A DNA stretch of 64,000 bases from a virus: positions 84,844-148,843 of IMG/VR virus record IMGVR_UViG_3300044911_002208; one strand, written 5' to 3'. A program made the position numbers and the translations under genes. A model generated the notes under the pieces. It was not told the DNA's origin. It saw only the letters and a list, made by a program, of their open reading frames with translations, and made no database searches. Position 1 is the first letter of the stretch. Each line of letters begins with the position of its first letter. Below are positions 7,912-42,391 of this stretch, one piece after another.

Positions 7912-7939
7912 ATTATAGCACAAATAAAAAGGGAGTCAA
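7912..7939 (-). promoter_or_regulatory. Sigma-70 promoter for the Sm-like/gp43 unit
   Basis: On the minus strand, TTGACT (7939-7934) is followed by a 16-base spacer ending in TG-C and then a perfect TATAAT (7917-7912). This is a near-consensus host-type promoter with an extended -10. It sits 30 bases upstream of ATG 7881. The -35 box lies in the 3' arm of a terminator. Confidence 0.8.
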
Positions 7940-7964
7940 TCTGGATTTTGCCAGAACTCCCTTT
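7922..7964 (-). terminator. Intrinsic terminator after the 59-aa gene
   Basis: On the minus strand, AAAGGGAGT (7964-7956) pairs with ACTCCCTTT (7936-7928). An inner TCTGG/CCAGA stem extends it, with a 3-base bulge, and a TTTTTATTT tract follows. It ends the unit containing the capsid-targeted small protein and Hsp20. Confidence 0.8.
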
Positions 7965-8000
7965 GATAGCACCGACGATATTTGGGGTAGCCAATTCTAT

Positions 8001-8180
8001 TTATTCACCATCACCACCACCATCTCCACCATCACCTCCAGCACTAGATGCAGATCTTTTTGGAACTGCCCTACCAGCACCAACATTAGTCACTCTACCC
8101 TTATTATAAATTTTATGAGGTTTTGCCATTTTAAAACTTATAGTTTTAATCTCTGCAATAAATTGCTGAAAGGTTTTCAT
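8001..8180 (-). CDS. Small protein with T4-type capsid-targeting leader (59 aa)
   Basis: ATG 8180 opens a 59-residue frame whose first ten residues are MKTFQQFIAE. This is almost the capsid-targeting sequence of T4 internal protein III (MKTYQEFIAE), which routes proteins into the prohead and is cut by gp21 after I-x-E. The rest is basic (KMAKPHKIYNKGRV) and then a Gly/Asp-rich tail from about residue 43. After cleavage about 49 residues would stay inside the head. It lies between Hsp20 and a terminator, away from the head genes. An internal ATG at 8129 could give a 42-residue form without the leader. Confidence 0.6.
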   Translation of the reverse strand: MKTFQQFIAEIKTISFKMAKPHKIYNKGRVTNVGAGRAVPKRSASSAGGDGGDGGGDGE

Positions 8181-8206
8181 TTACATCTCTAAACAATTTT
8201 AATTAT

Positions 8207-8647
8207 TTAGAGATAATCTTTACGTTTGTGATGATCTGGAATAATCTTTCTCAGATTGATAGAGAGGAGTCCATCTTCAAATGATACATCTGCAACTTCT
8301 GTATCATCCGCCATTGTCCACGCTCTTTTGAAAGATCGTTGAGCCAGTCCCTTATGGACGTAGTTGGTATTGGATTCTTTATCTTCTTTTTGTCCTTCAA
8401 CAAAAAGTTTCCCATCTTGTGTATAGACATAAACCTCTTTCTTTTTAAATCCTGCAAGTGCAAGTTCTAATCTTGATTCCACATTACTGACTTGAACTAA
8501 ATTGTATGGAGGATAGTTAGAAGTCGTTTCATGTAAATGAAATAGACGATCAAAATATTCGTCCATTCCAATACTGTTGCGAGTAATCCTATCCATCAAG
8601 GCAGGAAGATCCGCATGTGTAAACCTAGATGTTGCAAGGTTGGTCAT
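8207..8647 (-). CDS. hsp20: Hsp20 / alpha-crystallin small heat shock protein
   Basis: This 146-residue protein should be an ATP-independent holdase chaperone. The alpha-crystallin domain spans about residues 45-135, with 'PPYNLVQVSNVESRLELALAGFKKKEV' at its start and 'DGKLFVEGQ' (the usual 'L-x-V-x-G' strand) in the middle. 'FKRAWTMADDTEVADVSFEDGLLSINL' ends it, in the classic A-x-x-x-G-x-L arrangement. Hsp20 is a hallmark of T4-like cyanophages. ATG 8647 is preceded by a good ribosome-binding site (AAAGGAG) and by a promoter-like TATAAT. Confidence 0.92.
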   Translation of the reverse strand: MTNLATSRFTHADLPALMDRITRNSIGMDEYFDRLFHLHETTSNYPPYNLVQVSNVESRLELALAGFKKKEVYVYTQDGKLFVEGQKEDKESNTNYVHKGLAQRSFKRAWTMADDTEVADVSFEDGLLSINLRKIIPDHHKRKDYL

Positions 8648-25873: not shown

Positions 25874-27100
25874 TCACTTTTTAGCAACTGCTGAAAGAGT
25901 TCTCAGGTAAGCATTCATCGAATCTGAGTGATACTCAGTTGCAACGTCTACTCCTTCAGAAAGTGTTTCAGTTTTTGCCTGTGGAGATGTAGATCTTGAA
26001 GGGAAGTATGATTCCTTCAAAGTCTCCAATTTCTCACGATATTCTGCGTCACCTTCAAACTCAACACTTTCGGCAAGTGAAGCGAGCTTCTCTTTCTGAG
26101 ATAGTGCTAGACCTTCAGAAATTTCATCAAAGATTCCATTTGCAACCGACTCTGCGAGACGATTGTTTAGATGGATATTTTTCTCAATTTGCTCGTTGAG
26201 TTTTGTCTCCATGTCATCAAGTTTTTCTACCATGCTCTCTAACACATCATATTTATCTTCAGGGATTGATACATAATGTTCTTCAAAAAGACCTCTCATT
26301 CCTTGAAGGAATGATTCGGTCATTTCGGTCTTGAGACCGTGCTCAATTGCTAATTCGTTTTCTGAAATCCACTCTTCAGAAACATACTCAAGGTAAGAAT
26401 CAATTCTTTCCTCAAGTGATGCCTTAATAGCATCTACTTCTTCAATAAGTCTCTGCTCATATTGAACTTCAAGTTCTTCCTTGATTTCAGAGACTTTTGA
26501 TCTGAGTGCAGATTCAAAAACTACTTTTGCTTTTTCTTTAAACTCTTCGGAGAGTTCTTCTTCATCGCCAGTATTTAAAAGAGCATTGACATCTTCTTCG
26601 ATGTCAAACTCTTCTTTCTTCATTTTCTTGTCTTCCTCTTCCTCTTCCTCATCATCTTCCTCTTCTTCCTCTTCCTCTTCTTCGTCTTCTTCTTCTTTAG
26701 AAGCTTCAGAAACTACTTCTTCTTCAATTTCTTCATCAAATTCATTATCTTCTTCAATTTCTTCTTCAATTAGATCTTCGTCTTCTAGATCCTCATCTTC
26801 CTTTACTGCTTCACTTTTTTTAAGACCCTTCATTGGATCAGCAGCCTTAGCACCTTTATTTACAATATTTTTTACTTGTTGTAAAGTTTTTCCTGGAGTC
26901 TTTAACTCTGCAGAGCTATCGTCAGAACGATAGTTTTCTGGAGTAGGACCACCAAGATCTTCCCAGCTGCCAGTTTGGCCAGCAACTGCTCCAGGTGCTA
27001 GCTTCTGCATTGCATCCCCTGCCTTTGCACCAGCATTGACAGCGGTTCTGGATTGCTTAGTGCCTGCTTCCATTTCTTGTAAATTTTTACCACGAGACAT
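25874..27100 (-). CDS. 22: Prohead scaffold core protein gp22
   Basis: This 408-residue protein is encoded between protease gp21 and capsid gp23, the gp22 position. It is highly acidic and helical, as scaffolds are. Residues about 110-165 include an almost pure Glu/Asp tract, longer than in T4 gp22 (269 residues in total). The second half ('EEDVNALLNTGDEEELSEEF', 'ESMVEKLDDMETKLNEQIEK') is coiled-coil-like. The first 100 residues contain two repeated 'K-x-L-Q-x-x-x-x-x-x-x-x-G-A-K-A-x-D-x-M' units. It is expected to be digested by gp21 during maturation. Confidence 0.88.
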   Translation of the reverse strand: MSRGKNLQEMEAGTKQSRTAVNAGAKAGDAMQKLAPGAVAGQTGSWEDLGGPTPENYRSDDSSAELKTPGKTLQQVKNIVNKGAKAADPMKGLKKSEAVKEDEDLEDEDLIEEEIEEDNEFDEEIEEEVVSEASKEEEDEEEEEEEEEDDEEEEEEDKKMKKEEFDIEEDVNALLNTGDEEELSEEFKEKAKVVFESALRSKVSEIKEELEVQYEQRLIEEVDAIKASLEERIDSYLEYVSEEWISENELAIEHGLKTEMTESFLQGMRGLFEEHYVSIPEDKYDVLESMVEKLDDMETKLNEQIEKNIHLNNRLAESVANGIFDEISEGLALSQKEKLASLAESVEFEGDAEYREKLETLKESYFPSRSTSPQAKTETLSEGVDVATEYHSDSMNAYLRTLSAVAKK

Positions 27101-27167: not shown

Positions 27168-27818
27168 TTATAATGAATTTAAAAATTCATTAAATAACTC
27201 AATTTTATTCTCTTCTAGTCTTCTTTGTTCAACCAAATTATTAATTTTTCTTCTGGTGTTTTCTGCGAGTTTTTCGCGGAGAATTCCACCATCCCAAATC
27301 CATTCTTTGCCTTCCATAATGCCTTGAACAAAAGCATCAGGTGCAGAAGGATCAGCAACAATATCAGCTGCAGTTGCAAGCATGAAGTCTTCACCAACTT
27401 CTTTATATCCTTTATTGTTTTCTCTTAGAGAACCAATACCACGGGATGAAACACCAAGAGTTACCCCATCCTTAAGAAGAGATGCTGCAATTTTTCCCAT
27501 TGGAGTTGATAAGATTTGTGCCTTACCTACAAAATTATTACCACTTTGCTTTAATTCAGTAATTTTATGAGAAACTCTATCGAGATTTACTGTAGGACCA
27601 TCTGGATGACCAAGTTCTCCTAATGCCCTACCTTTTTTAACATAATTTTCATTATAACGATTTACTTCTCTTTCCATAATCGAAAAAGGATACATTCTAC
27701 CATTACGATTAACTGTTTCGCTTTGGAGGAATACACCTTGGATATACATTTGTTTTTTACCACCAACATCTTCGGTGATAAGTTCTACCTTTTCGATTTC
27801 TTCTCTGATAAGTTTCAT
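27168..27818 (-). CDS. 21: Prohead protease gp21
   Basis: This 216-residue serine protease cleaves scaffold and capsid proteins during head maturation. The catalytic His is in 'GELGHP' (His71) and the Ser in 'GVSSRG' (about 124-125), the standard pair for the T4 gp21/herpes assemblin clan. The start 'MKLIREEIEKVELITED' and the length (T4: 212) match. Its cutting rule (after I/L-x-E) is used to interpret the leaders of two small proteins in this window. Confidence 0.94.
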   Translation of the reverse strand: MKLIREEIEKVELITEDVGGKKQMYIQGVFLQSETVNRNGRMYPFSIMEREVNRYNENYVKKGRALGELGHPDGPTVNLDRVSHKITELKQSGNNFVGKAQILSTPMGKIAASLLKDGVTLGVSSRGIGSLRENNKGYKEVGEDFMLATAADIVADPSAPDAFVQGIMEGKEWIWDGGILREKLAENTRRKINNLVEQRRLEENKIELFNEFLNSL

Positions 27819-29682: not shown

Positions 29683-30003
29683 TCAATCAATCCATTCTAA
29701 TTTTGAGGGGTGATATCTTTGTACGTTTTTAATGTTAAAGTTCTTTTCTTCTGCTGGATAAATCTGATGAACAATTGCTCCAGGATATTGTCTTTGAAGT
29801 TGCTCACCTAAATCCTGTTTTGAGGGCAATCCAGATTTGGTTACTAATTCCAATCTATACAAGTTTCCTTGCCACATAACATCAGCAACATAGTTTTCTC
29901 CTACTTGCTGAGGTTGTTCTGTTTCGGAATTAATATAAAGATTTCCAGTAAAATCACCAGCAATATTAACTGATTCAGATATAAATTGCTTGAATGATTT
30001 CAT
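29683..30003 (-). CDS. Small head protein with capsid-targeting leader (106 aa)
   Basis: This 106-residue protein begins MKSFKQFISE, a close match to the T4 capsid-targeting sequence MKTYQEFIAE, with a gp21-type I-S-E cut expected after residue 10. Residues about 40-85 ('VADVMWQGNLYRLELV', 'LPSKQDLGEQLQRQYPGAIV') form a small domain that also occurs near residue 430 of the 585-residue protein at 40634-42391. It is encoded in the head cluster. A packaged internal protein or core component is the best guess. Confidence 0.6.
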   Translation of the reverse strand: MKSFKQFISESVNIAGDFTGNLYINSETEQPQQVGENYVADVMWQGNLYRLELVTKSGLPSKQDLGEQLQRQYPGAIVHQIYPAEEKNFNIKNVQRYHPSKLEWID

Positions 30004-30186: not shown

Positions 30187-30201
30187 TATTTATGATAAAT
30201 A
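30187..30201. promoter_or_regulatory. Palindromic two-way late promoter
   Basis: The sequence TATTTATGATAAATA is symmetric about its central G. It gives CATAAATA on the minus strand (30194-30187), in front of the 52-residue core gene. It gives GATAAATA on the plus strand (30194-30201), 24 bases before the first radical SAM start. Both fit NATAAATA. Confidence 0.65.
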
Positions 30202-30224
30202 CAACATACATAAAGTTCAATGAA

Positions 30225-32033
30225 ATGAAAAACATATATTTATTTCAACCACAATATTCTGTAGAAGTTAGAAAACAAGAAAATTATTGGATACCATATA
30301 GTGTTGGATGTATTTGGAGTTATTGTAATCAATTTGATGAAGTAAAAAATAATTTTATTTTAAAGGATATAATTTTTAAAAGAGAACATCCAGATAAAAT
30401 ATTAGAAAGATTGGATAATCCTGTTTTATGTGGATTTAGTTGTTATATTTGGAATGAACAGTATTGTCTAGGAATAGCTAAACTAGTAAAAGAAAAATTT
30501 CCAAATTGCATTATTGAATTTGGTGGACCTCAAGCATCTAAAAAAATGCAAGAGGAGAATGATTTTATTGATACTGTAATAATTTCTGAGGGGGAAGAAA
30601 ACTTTTTAGATATACTTAAATCTATTACAGAAAACAAAGAAATAAAAAAATATTACGAAAGAACTAGATTATCTACACTGGATTATCCTAGTCCATATCA
30701 ATCTAATATTTTTAGTAAAATAATCGAGGAAAATCCAAATGTAATTTGGGCTGCAACTATAGAAACAAATCGAGGTTGCCCTCATAGATGTACTTTTTGT
30801 GATTGGGGTGGAACTACTATGAGTAAAGTAGATCACTTTGATATAAAAAGAGTTGAAGATGATATTACTTGGATAAAAAATAATAATATTGGATACTTAT
30901 TTGTTGCTGATGCTAATTTTGGAATGTATAAGGAGCGAGATATACTTATAGCAGAGATAATCAGAGACAAATTAAAAGAAACCAATGTTGGTGACGTTGT
31001 TTTACAATTTGCTAAGAATTCAACAGAAGCAGTATTTAAAATTGCAAAAATACTTGAAGAACATTGTCTTAGGGGAATAACAATTAGCGTTCAAAGTATG
31101 AATCAACCAACTTTGAAGGCTATTAAGAGAAAGAATCTTCATATAAATGATTTGACTAATCATATGAGAATGAGTCAAGAATATGGAGTTAAAACATATA
31201 CTGAACTGATTTTGCCATTACCCGAGGAAACTTTAGAAACTTGGAAAGACGGATTATCTAAAGTTTTGGAGTGTGGTCAACACGAATCGATTGATGTTTG
31301 GTTCTGCCAATTATTTGGTAATAGTGAATTGGGAAGTGAATTCTCTAGAAAGATGCACGGAATTGAAACAGTAAAGGCGTATGACTATATTTCATTCACT
31401 AATCCTAAGGAATATCATGGATTCAAAGAAATTGTTGAGATAGTTAATAAAACTAATTCAATGGCAACTTCGGAATTAATTGAAAGTTATTTGTATGCTT
31501 GGACAGTAATACAATTCCATATAAATGGATATGCTCAACTAATAGCAAAATATCTTTTTTACAATAAAAATATAACTTATAGGATGTTTTATGATGAAAT
31601 ATTTGAAAAGGTTCAAACTGACAACGGAATAATTGGTAAATATTTTCAAAAATTAAAGTTCGATGTAAAAAATTACTTAACAGAGGGAATTTTACCAGAT
31701 AATAAAAGTGGACATTCATTAGAATTTAATTCTCCTAATGATTTTTCATTTTTTATGAATAATAGGAATGAAGTATTTGCCTTAATTGATAAATCTCTGG
31801 TAAAATTTGGTGGTATAACTAATGAATTTTGGGATCTTCAAAAAAACTTTGTTTATGACTCTGAGGTAGATTATCCTATTACTATTCCTTCTTCTGTTGA
31901 TACAACAACATGGGAAGATAAACCAACAAGTTTAATGGTTTCAAATAAAAGAGATGAGTCAATACGAAATGATTTTTGGGTTTTAAGAAGAAAGGGATTA
32001 CTAAAAAATACTGTATCTAAAATTGATGAATGA
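30225..32033 (+). CDS. B12-binding-type radical SAM protein 1
   Basis: This 602-residue enzyme-like protein is on the strand opposite to its neighbours. Residues 1-140 resemble a cobalamin-binding Rossmann domain of class B radical SAM enzymes ('CIIEFGGPQAS', 'IDTVIISEGEENF'), without the DxHxxG motif. The radical SAM core has C185-x3-C189-x2-C192 for the 4Fe-4S cluster, in 'NRGCPHRCTFCDWGG', and 'TYTELILPLPEETLETW' downstream. The start is ATG 30225 because it aligns with the MKNIYLFQPQYSVE start of the paralogue; an earlier ATG at 30192 lies on the promoter. The substrate is unknown. The stop overlaps the next start (ATGA). Confidence 0.85.
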   Translation: MKNIYLFQPQYSVEVRKQENYWIPYSVGCIWSYCNQFDEVKNNFILKDIIFKREHPDKILERLDNPVLCGFSCYIWNEQYCLGIAKLVKEKFPNCIIEFGGPQASKKMQEENDFIDTVIISEGEENFLDILKSITENKEIKKYYERTRLSTLDYPSPYQSNIFSKIIEENPNVIWAATIETNRGCPHRCTFCDWGGTTMSKVDHFDIKRVEDDITWIKNNNIGYLFVADANFGMYKERDILIAEIIRDKLKETNVGDVVLQFAKNSTEAVFKIAKILEEHCLRGITISVQSMNQPTLKAIKRKNLHINDLTNHMRMSQEYGVKTYTELILPLPEETLETWKDGLSKVLECGQHESIDVWFCQLFGNSELGSEFSRKMHGIETVKAYDYISFTNPKEYHGFKEIVEIVNKTNSMATSELIESYLYAWTVIQFHINGYAQLIAKYLFYNKNITYRMFYDEIFEKVQTDNGIIGKYFQKLKFDVKNYLTEGILPDNKSGHSLEFNSPNDFSFFMNNRNEVFALIDKSLVKFGGITNEFWDLQKNFVYDSEVDYPITIPSSVDTTTWEDKPTSLMVSNKRDESIRNDFWVLRRKGLLKNTVSKIDE

Positions 32034-33823
32034 AAAATATATATTTATTTCAACCGCAATATTCTGTAGAAATTAGAAATGAAGACACATATTGGCTTCC
32101 CTACAGTGTTGGTTGTTTATGGAGTTATTGTAATCAATTTGATGAAGTAAAAAACAATTTTGTATTAAAAGATATTATCTTTAAAAGAGAGCATCCAGAT
32201 AAAATACTGGAAAGATTGGACAATCCAACAGTGTGCAGTTTTAGTTGTTACGTTTGGAATGAGCAATATTGTCTATTTTTATCAAAACTAATAAAAGAAA
32301 AATTTCCAGACTGTATTATTCAATTTGGTGGACCACAAGCAACTTTGAAAATTCTTGATAATGAATTTATAGATTGTGTAATAATTGGTGAAGGTGAAGA
32401 AAGTTACTTAGATTTATTAACTAGTATTATTCAAAATAAAACGATAGAAAAAATATATCAAAAAAGTAGAATAGAGCAATTAGACTTTCCAAGTCCATAT
32501 GAATCTAAAGTATTTGATCAAATTGTAAAAGACAATCCAAATACTCTTTGGGCTTCTACTATTGAAACTAATCGAGGGTGCCCCCATTCATGTACTTTTT
32601 GTGATTGGGGTGGATTAACCTATAGTAAAGTTAAAATGTTTAATCTAGATCGTGTAAAAAATGATCTTGAATGGATTAAAAATAATAATGTTGCATTTAT
32701 ATTTTGTGCAGATGCAAATTTTGGAATGTATAAAGAAAGAGATTTAGAAATAGCAAAATTAATAAGAGAAGTTGCTGATAATAGCAAATTAGAATCTGTT
32801 AATTTGCAATATTCTAAAAATTCTACAGAAGTAGTTTTTGAAATAGCAAAAATACTTGGAGATATTAGTAGAGGTGTAACTATAAGTGTTCAAAGTATGA
32901 ATGAACCAACACTTAAAGCAATTAAAAGAAAAAATATGAGTATTAATAACATTACATCTCATATTGAAAAAAGTAAAGAGCATGATGTAAAAACTTATAC
33001 CGAGTTAATTTTAGGATTACCAAACGAAACTATAGATTCTTGGAAGGAAGGATTCTCTAAAATATTAGAATTTGGGCAACATGAATCTATTGATGTTTGG
33101 TTTTGTCAAGTTTTTGGTAACAGTGAATTGAACAGTGAATTATCTAGAAAAATATATGGTATTGAAACTATCAAAGCAGAGGATTACGTTTCATTCACTA
33201 ATGAAAAAGATTACTCAGAAGTAAAAGAAAGTATAGAATTAATTAATAAAACCGATACTTTAACCACAGATGAATTAATTGAATGTTATATGTACGGATG
33301 GTTGATTGTTCAATTGCATATAGCAGGATATACTCAAGTGCTATCGAAGTATTGCTTTAATATTTTAAATATAAGTTATAGAAAATTTTATGATAATTTA
33401 TTTGACTGTATAAAAAATGATGATGGATTCATTGGAGTTCATTATCAAGAAATATATAATATTGTCTCTACTTATATCAAGACTGGGAAGATAACACAGG
33501 GTGCCAAAACTGGACATTCTTTACATGCTAGTAGTTTTGAATTCTTATTTAAAAATAAATCAAAACTATTTGAATTTATTGAGTTATATTGCTCAAATAT
33601 TGTACAAATTGACTCAGAAATTATTGATATTCAGAAAAAATTTATTTTTAATGAAAATCAAAAATATCCATTAACTTTAAACTCAAAATATAATATAGAA
33701 ACTTGGGAGAAAAATAAAATATCCTATAAAATCGATAATGACTTTATAGGATATGATAAAAATAATCTTTTTATCTTAAGAAGAAAGGGTCTTTTAAAAA
33801 ATAAATTTATTAAAATTACTTAA
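32030..33823 (+). CDS. B12-binding-type radical SAM protein 2
   Basis: This 597-residue paralogue of the previous gene has only 19 differences in the first 105 aligned residues by eye, with more divergence later. The cluster cysteines are at 184, 188 and 191 ('NRGCPHSCTFCDWGG'). Both proteins end with 'LRRKGLLKN' near the C-terminus. It starts within the stop of copy 1, so the two are coupled. Its 3' end overlaps the end of the convergent portal gene by 8 bases. A tandem duplication is the simplest origin. The two may differ in substrate or form a pair. Confidence 0.85.
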   Translation: MKNIYLFQPQYSVEIRNEDTYWLPYSVGCLWSYCNQFDEVKNNFVLKDIIFKREHPDKILERLDNPTVCSFSCYVWNEQYCLFLSKLIKEKFPDCIIQFGGPQATLKILDNEFIDCVIIGEGEESYLDLLTSIIQNKTIEKIYQKSRIEQLDFPSPYESKVFDQIVKDNPNTLWASTIETNRGCPHSCTFCDWGGLTYSKVKMFNLDRVKNDLEWIKNNNVAFIFCADANFGMYKERDLEIAKLIREVADNSKLESVNLQYSKNSTEVVFEIAKILGDISRGVTISVQSMNEPTLKAIKRKNMSINNITSHIEKSKEHDVKTYTELILGLPNETIDSWKEGFSKILEFGQHESIDVWFCQVFGNSELNSELSRKIYGIETIKAEDYVSFTNEKDYSEVKESIELINKTDTLTTDELIECYMYGWLIVQLHIAGYTQVLSKYCFNILNISYRKFYDNLFDCIKNDDGFIGVHYQEIYNIVSTYIKTGKITQGAKTGHSLHASSFEFLFKNKSKLFEFIELYCSNIVQIDSEIIDIQKKFIFNENQKYPLTLNSKYNIETWEKNKISYKIDNDFIGYDKNNLFILRRKGLLKNKFIKIT

Positions 33824-40633: not shown

Positions 40634-42391
40634 TTAATTACAATTCCAACGTCTTAATGCTTTGTTTATTCTGCTATCTGGATCTCTTGAAGTTTCGGCA
40701 GAAGTCAATTTTGATTTCATACCTTTCATTCTGCGGCAAAAGGACTTACGGCGATCAGCCCTTTTGCCCTCAGGCTTTTTTTCAGTTACTGCAGTTTGTA
40801 ACTTTGAACCTGGATTTTCTTTGCGATATGCATCAACTGCTTTTTGACTTAATCCATCAGTCTTATCTTTACGATTTACTGACTGCCAATCTTCTTCTAA
40901 TTCTTCACCAATAGTCTTGTTATTTAATAGATAATTTTTTGATGGTGAATTTTGAACTTGAACAATAGGATCTCCACCAGGTCTCAAATCTGTTATTTGA
41001 GCGTGTAGAACTTTTGCTTCTGGGTAAACTTTTTGCAATTCATATTCAACCTCCTTTCTTGAAGGTACTTTTATTTGAGGGAAGAACATTCTTAACGAAT
41101 AAGATTTACCTCTCCAAGTAAACATAATTACCATTAACTGACCATTTTGTGATGGAATTCTGACTGCTTCTTCAATATCCTCTTTTTGCATCAATTGTTT
41201 AGCAAGATCATTTGCCCTTCTCTGCTGTCTACGATATAATTCTTGTCTTGCATCAGAACCTGCTTGTGCAGCATCTCTATCAGCAACTGTTTTTGCAGTT
41301 TTGCGAATTTTATTTGCTCTCTGGCGGTCTTTAGGATTTTGTGAATTGCTTAATCTATTTGCTTTGTTTAATGCTTTTTCTTCACCAGTTTTTTTTACAC
41401 CATCTAATCTTCCAGCAGCACGACGAGTAAATTGAAGTTTTGCTTCATCTATAACATCTTGGGGTGTAATTAAATCAATGAATTCAACGAATGTGTTACC
41501 GAACATATCTTCAATTGTAACACTTTCATTTGTATTAGATTTCTTTTCAACTTTTTTAAGTTTAGTGTAGTAATCTGGAACCTCATCTAAATGTTGTAAT
41601 GCGGTAATTCTTGCTGATGTTTTATTTGATGTGTGCTCACCTTCTACTTTAATTCCAATCTTAAGTTGTTTTTGTATTGTTTCAAGTGAAACCCCATGCT
41701 TTTTAGCAATTTCTTCTGGTGATTTGTATGATTTAACTGGACCTTTTGGATCTATTTCTTCCTTCATTGCACAGTCATCTTTTCCATGAACTGGACATGA
41801 TTTTCCTTTTTTGGTGTGATTACAACCCATTGCCTCAGCAACTGGTTTACCAATACCAACCTCTGTTGGTTTTTTCTTTTGACCGTTTACTTTAAACCCG
41901 TCTGGTAGGGGTTTACATACTTTATCAGTGTTACACCAATACATCCCGTTACCACATTTTTCTTCACCAAGAATTTTTTGTACTAGAGAAATTTCTTCTT
42001 TTTTAAAACTTGGCAAAGATACGGAAGCAGAAGGTCTTAATTTTGATTTTGCAACTTGTGCTTCATTTGGATTGGAACTTTTTGCCAAACCACGAATTTT
42101 TTCTTGCTTTCTTGCTTCTTTATGTTTTTGTGTATTAATTGTTGCACTTACTTCTTCATCCACACTTTCATCACTTTGGAGATATTCTGCAGCAGTATCA
42201 ATATAATCTGCCGCTTTAGTAATTTTAGATTGAACCCAAGCTGGAAGTTGAGTATCGCTTTTTTTTATAACCTTTCTTAATTTATTAATGGATCTCTCAA
42301 TAGCATCCATTTCATTGCGAGCCATATATCCTTCATCATCTTTTCTTTTACCACTTGCAATTTCTTTGTGGTCTTCAGACAACTTTTTCAT
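40634..42391 (-). CDS. DUF5661-like structural/packaged protein (585 aa)
   Basis: This 585-residue Lys/Arg/Glu-rich protein sits between gp16 and gp17. Cysteine-rich stretches ('CGNGMYWCNTDKVC', 'CNHTKKGKSCPVHGKDDC') occur near residues 148-210. A DUF5661-like segment ('IAKKHGVSLETIQKQLKIGI' then 'HTSNKTSARITALQHLDEVPDYYTKL') follows. Near 430-475 is a domain shared with the 106-residue head protein. The basic C-terminus ('SFCRRMKGMK...DPDSRINKALRRWNC') recurs in marine phage structural proteins. The role is unknown; several modules may be separated by gp21-type sites. A perfect late promoter precedes it. Confidence 0.55.
   Translation of the reverse strand: MKKLSEDHKEIASGKRKDDEGYMARNEMDAIERSINKLRKVIKKSDTQLPAWVQSKITKAADYIDTAAEYLQSDESVDEEVSATINTQKHKEARKQEKIRGLAKSSNPNEAQVAKSKLRPSASVSLPSFKKEEISLVQKILGEEKCGNGMYWCNTDKVCKPLPDGFKVNGQKKKPTEVGIGKPVAEAMGCNHTKKGKSCPVHGKDDCAMKEEIDPKGPVKSYKSPEEIAKKHGVSLETIQKQLKIGIKVEGEHTSNKTSARITALQHLDEVPDYYTKLKKVEKKSNTNESVTIEDMFGNTFVEFIDLITPQDVIDEAKLQFTRRAAGRLDGVKKTGEEKALNKANRLSNSQNPKDRQRANKIRKTAKTVADRDAAQAGSDARQELYRRQQRRANDLAKQLMQKEDIEEAVRIPSQNGQLMVIMFTWRGKSYSLRMFFPQIKVPSRKEVEYELQKVYPEAKVLHAQITDLRPGGDPIVQVQNSPSKNYLLNNKTIGEELEEDWQSVNRKDKTDGLSQKAVDAYRKENPGSKLQTAVTEKKPEGKRADRRKSFCRRMKGMKSKLTSAETSRDPDSRINKALRRWNCN

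Follow-up and report, generated by a model that had tools for sequence, protein, structure and literature searches.

A candidate T4-type internal head protein encoded behind hsp20 in a freshwater T4-like cyanophage

Does the short open reading frame (ORF) directly behind the hsp20 gene of a freshwater T4-like cyanophage encode an internal head protein, i.e., one that is targeted to the prohead by its N-terminal leader, processed there and carried in the virion? The question was raised by an initial annotation, in which the ORF, described as lying beside Hsp20 and away from the head genes, was read in this manner from its first ten residues. The DNA analysed here, referred to as the window, is a 64-kb stretch of a 148,843-bp IMG/VR contig that encodes T4-like gp21, gp22 and gp23 in addition to Hsp20; coordinates are those of the window unless another record is named. 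The features of immediate concern are the following.

8001..8180, minus strand: 59-aa ORF, putative internal head protein precursor (supported by the reading frame, 61 relatives, purifying selection and its place immediately downstream of hsp20)
8151..8180, minus strand: leader MKTFQQFIAE, a predicted capsid-targeting sequence (CTS) by its match to T4 IPII/IPIII, with a gp21-type I-A-E at residues 8-10
8004..8150, minus strand: predicted mature part, 49 aa, a basic segment followed by a Gly/Asp tail (from the sequence)
8207..8647, minus strand: hsp20, the fixed upstream neighbour (Pfam HSP20, E 8e-14; phrog_432)

The 59-aa ORF and its leader

The ORF, read from 8180 to 8001 on the minus strand, opens with ATG, closes with TAA and translates to MKTFQQFIAEIKTISFKMAKPHKIYNKGRVTNVGAGRAVPKRSASSAGGDGGDGGGDGE, a product of 59 amino acids. 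The leader had been claimed to depart at two positions from MKTYQEFIAE of T4, and comparison with the T4 record (NC_000866) indeed placed the only differences from IPII and IPIII at F4/Y and Q6/E. Mutagenesis in T4 has assigned residues 4 and 7 to targeting and residues 8 and 10 to processing, an Asp10 mutant being still targeted (PMC9026906). Both targeting positions, F4 and F7, are present in the 59-aa protein, and I8-A9-E10 has the form of a gp21-type site. The translation also confirmed that the 49 residues after the leader are basic and Gly/Asp-rich, and the description of the surroundings was accurate, as hsp20 lies directly upstream and the head genes are found at 24-42 kb.

An AlphaFold model of the protein was of low confidence except for the leader helix (pLDDT 61.5, pTM 0.25). 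The leader, with a helix at residues 4-13 and a mean pLDDT of 86 for residues 1-10, was the best-predicted part, and the mature part was given a low-confidence beta hairpin (residues 22-33) and a disordered tail. The protein had no match in Pfam and just weak matches in PHROGs, these being to the leader; by inspection of the sequences, its mature part is unlike T4 IPI, IPII and IPIII. Rfam returned nothing in the 64-kb window at gathering thresholds.

To place the leader among all possible starts in the window, a rule was taken from the published T4 mutagenesis, namely, F/Y at positions 4 and 7, I/L/V/M at 8, and E at 10. When all 6,482 start codons of the window were screened with it, two ORFs of at least 50 aa were retained, the 59-aa ORF and one at 30003-29683 in the head cluster, where the presumed partners of the leader are also encoded.

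25874..27100, minus strand: gp22-like scaffold, presumed core binding partner of the leader (Pfam T4_CASP, E 9e-76)
27168..27818, minus strand: gp21-like prohead protease, the presumed cleaving enzyme (Pfam Peptidase_S77, E 2.6e-40)
29683..30003, minus strand: 106-aa head-cluster protein with the leader MKSFKQFISE (phrog_1742)

The gene for the 106-aa protein overlaps a virion structural protein gene at the latter's start, and the protein is very widespread among T4-like contigs; in phage S-SCSM1, the 106-aa leader protein SSCSM1_30 carries no virion-protein flag, though its neighbours are flagged. Two other features of the head region may be recorded here. Within the head gene cluster, two radical-SAM proteins with B12-binding-like regions by Pfam are encoded in tandem on the other strand (30192-33823, plus strand), and beside the terminase (40634-42391, minus strand) lies a 585-aa protein with DUF5661 and DUF6321, both of which also occur as leader cargo in other phages.

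Relatives, promoter and cassette at the hsp20 locus

A tblastn search of IMG/VR with the 59-aa protein retrieved 61 relatives. The same search of INPHARED phages gave chance matches alone, and none was obtained there with a type-C relative; relatives were found in IMG/VR alone, plus a distant ORF of type E in phage S-SRM01. Nearly all extracted relatives lie behind a recognisable hsp20 end; in two variant groups, L031 and L052, the upstream end is another one. When codons were counted pairwise across 21 distinct members, dN/dS came to 0.07 in the leader, about 0.24 both overall and in the cargo columns, and 0.42 in the tail. The 59-aa ORF is, therefore, a real gene under purifying selection. 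That the frame arose by chance could be entertained in view of its short length and the missing Pfam match, but the 61 relatives, the dN/dS of 0.24 and the fixed synteny rule this out, and we attach practically no weight to it. Translation from the internal ATG at 8129, which would yield a leaderless 42-aa peptide, had been named in the initial annotation as a scenario that would undo its reading, and finds some precedent in the S-SRM01 relative, which is annotated in GenBank from an internal Met and without a leader. However, the corresponding M18 is Ala or Gly in the relatives, and the leader is the most constrained part of the protein; the scenario of a leaderless start is thereby removed, and such a start is very improbable. 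In the S-SRM01 record itself (MW015081.1, 157606-157785; L147:5001-5180), an upstream in-frame ATG adds MKTFQQF to the annotated QPX48211.1, and the start sites of such small leader ORFs may often be mis-called.

A second collection was assembled from IMG/VR by Hsp20 alone, which gave 77 usable loci, and a locus was called filled when an ORF of at least 45 codons began no more than 66 nt from the hsp20 stop. Such an ORF was found right behind hsp20 in 36 of the 77 loci, specifying 32 distinct products, and was absent in the other 41. Every one of the 32 products in this Hsp20-selected set starts with MK[ST][FY]xx[FY]; positions 4 and 7 are invariant as F/Y, while position 5 and the cargo vary. 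An [ILVM]xE site occurs by residue 20 in 20 of the 32 and is lacking in 12. In one group of products the site is shifted to residue 13, and its middle residue is variable (LKE, INE, IRE, VQE); in the T4 record, the site of IPI (...TITE) is also later than residue 10. This pattern, with positions 4 and 7 fixed and the cleavage site variable, agrees with the T4 mutagenesis (PMC9026906). The cargo behind the leader is of several types: RVTNVGAGRAVPKRS; HTVYSGG..KGKAVPVRSRSS; KGDFGADAKPPKAKC..KFKRKR; KMAKPHLGLPKGKAYAKRS; and a His/Gly-rich type.

The DNA on the two sides of the ORF carries the following elements, all on the minus strand.

8204..8211, minus strand: TCTAAATA, a T4-type late promoter core that overlaps the stop codon of hsp20 (core search)
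8184..8215, minus strand: RNA hairpin that spans the late promoter and the stretch preceding the start codon (-13.3 kcal/mol, z = -7.7)
7998..8005, minus strand: second late-promoter-like core AATAAATA in the stop codon of the ORF, the downstream cassette border (junction comparison across loci)
7912..7983, minus strand: PeSL-like region with a conserved AATATCGTCGG element, a terminator-like stem-loop and, overlapping it, a sigma-70 promoter (TTGACT-16-TATAAT)

The upstream core, at -31 of the ORF, is one base off NATAAATA, the late promoter of S-PM2 and a cyanophage consensus (PMC2984593). In the window, late cores occur within 60 nt upstream of 7 of 18 structural genes, while the 17 other genes in the replication block have none; the 59-aa ORF lies among replication genes, yet it has such a core. 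Late expression together with the head proteins may be predicted from the position of this core. The hairpin, with 14 bp, extends from the end of hsp20 to the start codon, and is also found in the near relative L065 (z = -5.7), but is absent from most family members. A similar arrangement is known from T4 gene e, where the late promoter lies in the 5' arm of a start-region hairpin and early read-through RNA is poorly translated (PMC3014915). The cyanophage hairpin likewise covers the start region and holds the promoter in its 5' arm, and may act as it does in gene e; it differs in being seen just in the window phage and the near relative.

Filled and empty loci were compared at their borders. 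In all 41 empty loci the hsp20 stop lies within TAAATA, and a AATATCGTCGG-type element comes next in 35 of them, usually followed by a stem-loop containing a sigma-70 promoter. In filled loci, TAAATA is present at the hsp20 stop in 35 of 36 and at the stop of the ORF in 34 of 36, the other two having TGATAAATA, and the downstream junction and element are the same as in empty loci. A mere coding constraint of hsp20 was considered as the origin of TAAATA and rejected, since the sequence is also kept at the stop of the small ORF. The two TAAATA cores and the common element downstream thus mark out the ORF together with its promoter as one unit, which a locus either has in full or lacks altogether, and this cassette presumably moves by recombination between the cores. 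The downstream element has a sigma-70 promoter with 11 of 12 promoter bases and a stem-loop with z = -3.2; neither the AATATCGTCGG element nor the stem-loop had a match in Rfam. The AATATCGTCGG element and its terminator lie immediately behind a late-promoter-like core, an arrangement from which a small late RNA could arise. By the secondary description in PMC4503421, PeSL elements of T4-like phages are similar in that they combine a stem-loop terminator with an overlapping early sigma-70 promoter, next to an ORF that can be exchanged, whereas the cyanophage element is single-copy and tied to one locus. A multi-copy mobile nature of the PeSL-like motif was in fact dismissed, as the stem-loop/-35 motif was found a single time in the genome and was absent from nine other cyanophages.

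The leader on other proteins and in virions

The search for other frames with this leader, advised in the initial annotation, was productive, returning the family behind hsp20 and many other proteins, a large number of which are not encoded near hsp20. The pattern MKSFxQF[hydrophobic]xE was found in at least 120 IMG/VR stretches, against one for a permuted residue order; the count for the T version of the leader is likewise a lower bound. Only 2 of 230 complete leader ORFs among the matches listed were shorter than 30 codons, and a T4-like core gene was present on the available fragment in 163 of 239 sampled leader stretches. In eleven whole phage records, the seven-residue leader pattern occurred 43 times, compared to 11 times for the reversed control, and its matches in T4 include ipI, ipII, ipIII and gene 61.1. 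Ninety representatives of different leader clusters contained, among others, Pfam domains of cytidylyltransferase, SAM lyase, zeta-type kinase, ADP-ribosyltransferase, glucosaminidase, DPBB, GH19, lysozyme, GNAT and NT5C.

Two individual cases are worth describing. Outside the window, a 196-aa protein with the start MKSFSQFLNE and the motif DGHGGFYD is encoded at G000:C1:73871 on the minus strand (L143), and matches a portion of the virion cytidylyltransferase family, but it apparently does not contain the complete catalytic domain. A 151-aa ORF (L033:925-1377) begins with MKTFQEFIAE, one residue from T4, continuing into an ADP-ribosyltransferase-like start (YHGTSAS...), and its contig also holds a relative of the 59-aa ORF.

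Several leader-bearing proteins, non-structural enzymes among them, have been detected in cyanophage virions. The NMNAT of S-SCSM1, detected in CsCl-purified virions (PMC9602691), starts with MKSFLQFLKE (QFG06348.1). Virions of S-CREM2 contained a SAM hydrolase, an APH-like kinase and a cytidylyltransferase (PMC10665884, Table 3), the respective starts of which are MKDFDSFLEE, VKRFDAFLTE and MKNFSSFLTE. The cytidylyltransferase T4-GC190 of S-SM1, also detected in the virion (PMC3037559), starts with MKKFSAFLNE, and S-SZBM1_140, detected as well (PMC9146016), with the one-residue-shorter MRFRQFIIEA. In S-CREM2, all three genes fitting the T4-derived rule were detected, compared to 22 of 151 overall (P = 0.003), the test covering 85 kb with 151 annotated genes outside the main structural block at 44-114 kb. 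A widened rule (4/4, P = 0.0004) was set aside since it had been partly fitted after seeing the N-termini, and reliance is therefore placed on the T4-derived rule. It is to be noted that the authors of the mass spectrometry papers considered that the virion enzymes might be co-purified contaminants.

Leader-like sequences at other positions were also encountered. In S-CREM2, gp12 (OR473000, 7704-10313, minus strand) is a Cas9-like nuclease that has been reported from virions. It contains the leader-like segment LRFASFMAE internally, at residues 17-25, together with the motif DGHGSYMD, and KTFRDFLN stands at its C-terminus; its N-terminus may be mis-annotated. The 69-aa virion protein SSCSM1_93 of S-SCSM1 (MK867354, 91626-91835) has a C-terminal leader-like RTFKEFLEYIE.

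Interpretation and significance

From these observations, the product of the 59-aa gene is best explained as a T4-type internal head protein, which would enter the prohead through its leader, be cleaved by gp21 behind Glu10 and end up in the virion; to this we assign a probability of about 0.78. The proposal of the initial annotation is thus supported in part, as the leader residues, the encoded gp21 and gp22, the late promoter core and the leader on virion enzymes are all in its favour. It needs to be amended in that the leader is not confined to one ORF, and in that some relatives have the targeting residues without a recognisable gp21 site. We infer targeting, cleavage, packaging and injection of the protein to proceed as follows. 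Late in infection, RNA polymerase with gp55 would start at the TCTAAATA core at the hsp20 stop; earlier transcripts from hsp20 would fold the hairpin over the start region and be poorly translated. The helical ten-residue leader, by way of Phe4 and Phe7, would bind the gp22/gp21 scaffolding core, so that the protein is built into the prohead, and gp21 would cleave on the C-terminal side of Glu10 in I-A-E, so that a basic peptide of 49 residues with a Gly/Asp tail remains in the DNA-filled head. This peptide would then most likely enter the cyanobacterium with the DNA. Comparison lends good support to the first of these steps; cleavage and injection are extrapolated from T4. On the other side stand the 12 of 32 leaders that lack an [ILVM]xE site, the missing virion flag of SSCSM1_30, the possible co-purification of the virion enzymes and the one-base deviation of the promoter from NATAAATA; moreover, we know of no virion peptide of the hsp20-adjacent 59-aa protein, nor of a proteome of S-SRM01, the only cultured relative found.

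The likeness to T4 IPI, IPII and IPIII lies in the leader (MK-T-[FY]-x-x-F-I-A-E, in which the residues for targeting and cleavage agree), in the small basic cargo, and in a cargo that varies between phages behind a constant leader. The cyanophage ORF differs in that it lies behind hsp20, its cargo is unrelated and shorter, and some of its relatives are without the cleavage site. The 54-aa product of T4 gene 61.1, annotated as hypothetical, is likewise a short ORF outside the head cluster with a comparable start (MKTFKEFIKE), but with other cargo. The NMNAT/cytidylyltransferase-like proteins of T4-like Kyanoviridae (T4-GC190, S-SCSM1 ORF91, S-CREM2 gp154) share an N-terminal MKxFxxFLxE and detection in the virion, but are enzymes of 300-400 residues and not small basic peptides.

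Two other fates of the product were weighed. It may be a minor component of the prohead core and nothing else, its fragment staying in the head or being lost without a role in the next host. T4 IPIII does affect head assembly (PMC9026906), a function in capsid maturation has been proposed for Hsp20 (PMC3037559), and the cargo is tiny, partly disordered and Gly/Asp-rich, all in agreement with such a part; nonetheless, the cargo is unrelated between phages and the gene is absent at 41 of 77 loci, as for variable host-interaction genes, and we regard this restricted role as unlikely. Alternatively, the N-terminal motif may be kept for another reason, such as binding Hsp20 or RegA, in a small factor that stays in the cytoplasm and is never taken into the head. 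That the gene adjoins hsp20 at the loci examined and that about one-third of the family leaders have no cleavage site would fit such a factor, but the leader is also found away from hsp20, on T4 IPI, IPII and IPIII and on virion enzymes detected by mass spectrometry, and the promoter is of the late type, which together make a purely cytoplasmic function quite improbable.

Returning to the internal head protein, the presence of the leader on many unrelated proteins, several of them in virions, suggests that the tag probably marks head contents. The packing of diverse proteins by the CTS in T4-like phages has already been proposed (PMC9026906; PMC3012670), and the newer part is the breadth of leader cargo in cyanophages and the hsp20 cassette. 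The available portions of the source papers do not ascribe the packaging of the NMNAT/cytidylyltransferase-like virion enzymes to the leader, and in the open-access literature 'capsid targeting sequence' and 'cyanophage' co-occur in a single paper, through a reference title. On balance, we lean slightly towards the view that the leader is a general address tag in T4-like cyanophages and their relatives, which loads a large set of exchangeable, unrelated proteins, and that the hsp20 site is among those at which small cargo cassettes bounded by TAAATA are gained and lost; within the same view, the tagged cargo would comprise SAM lyase, ADP-ribosyltransferase-like proteins, zeta-type kinase, peptidoglycan hydrolases, acetyltransferases, nucleotidyltransferases and small basic peptides. 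The sequence of the cargo points to no particular function in the host. Among the T4 internal proteins, IPI inhibits the restriction enzyme GmrSD (PMC4437046) and IPIII is required on strain ECOR17 (PMC9391042), which makes an anti-defence role of the cargo reasonable; that the cargo acts as an early anti-defence or takeover factor is put forward as a tentative suggestion.

If the leader is indeed such a tag, it would predict, from sequence alone, what T4-like phages pack in their heads and deliver, including puzzling virion proteins of abundant cyanophages, such as NMNAT, SAM hydrolase and kinases. The internal-protein system of T4 would then extend to the phages of cyanobacteria, and the tagged proteins would be a source of candidate first-response anti-defence and takeover factors.
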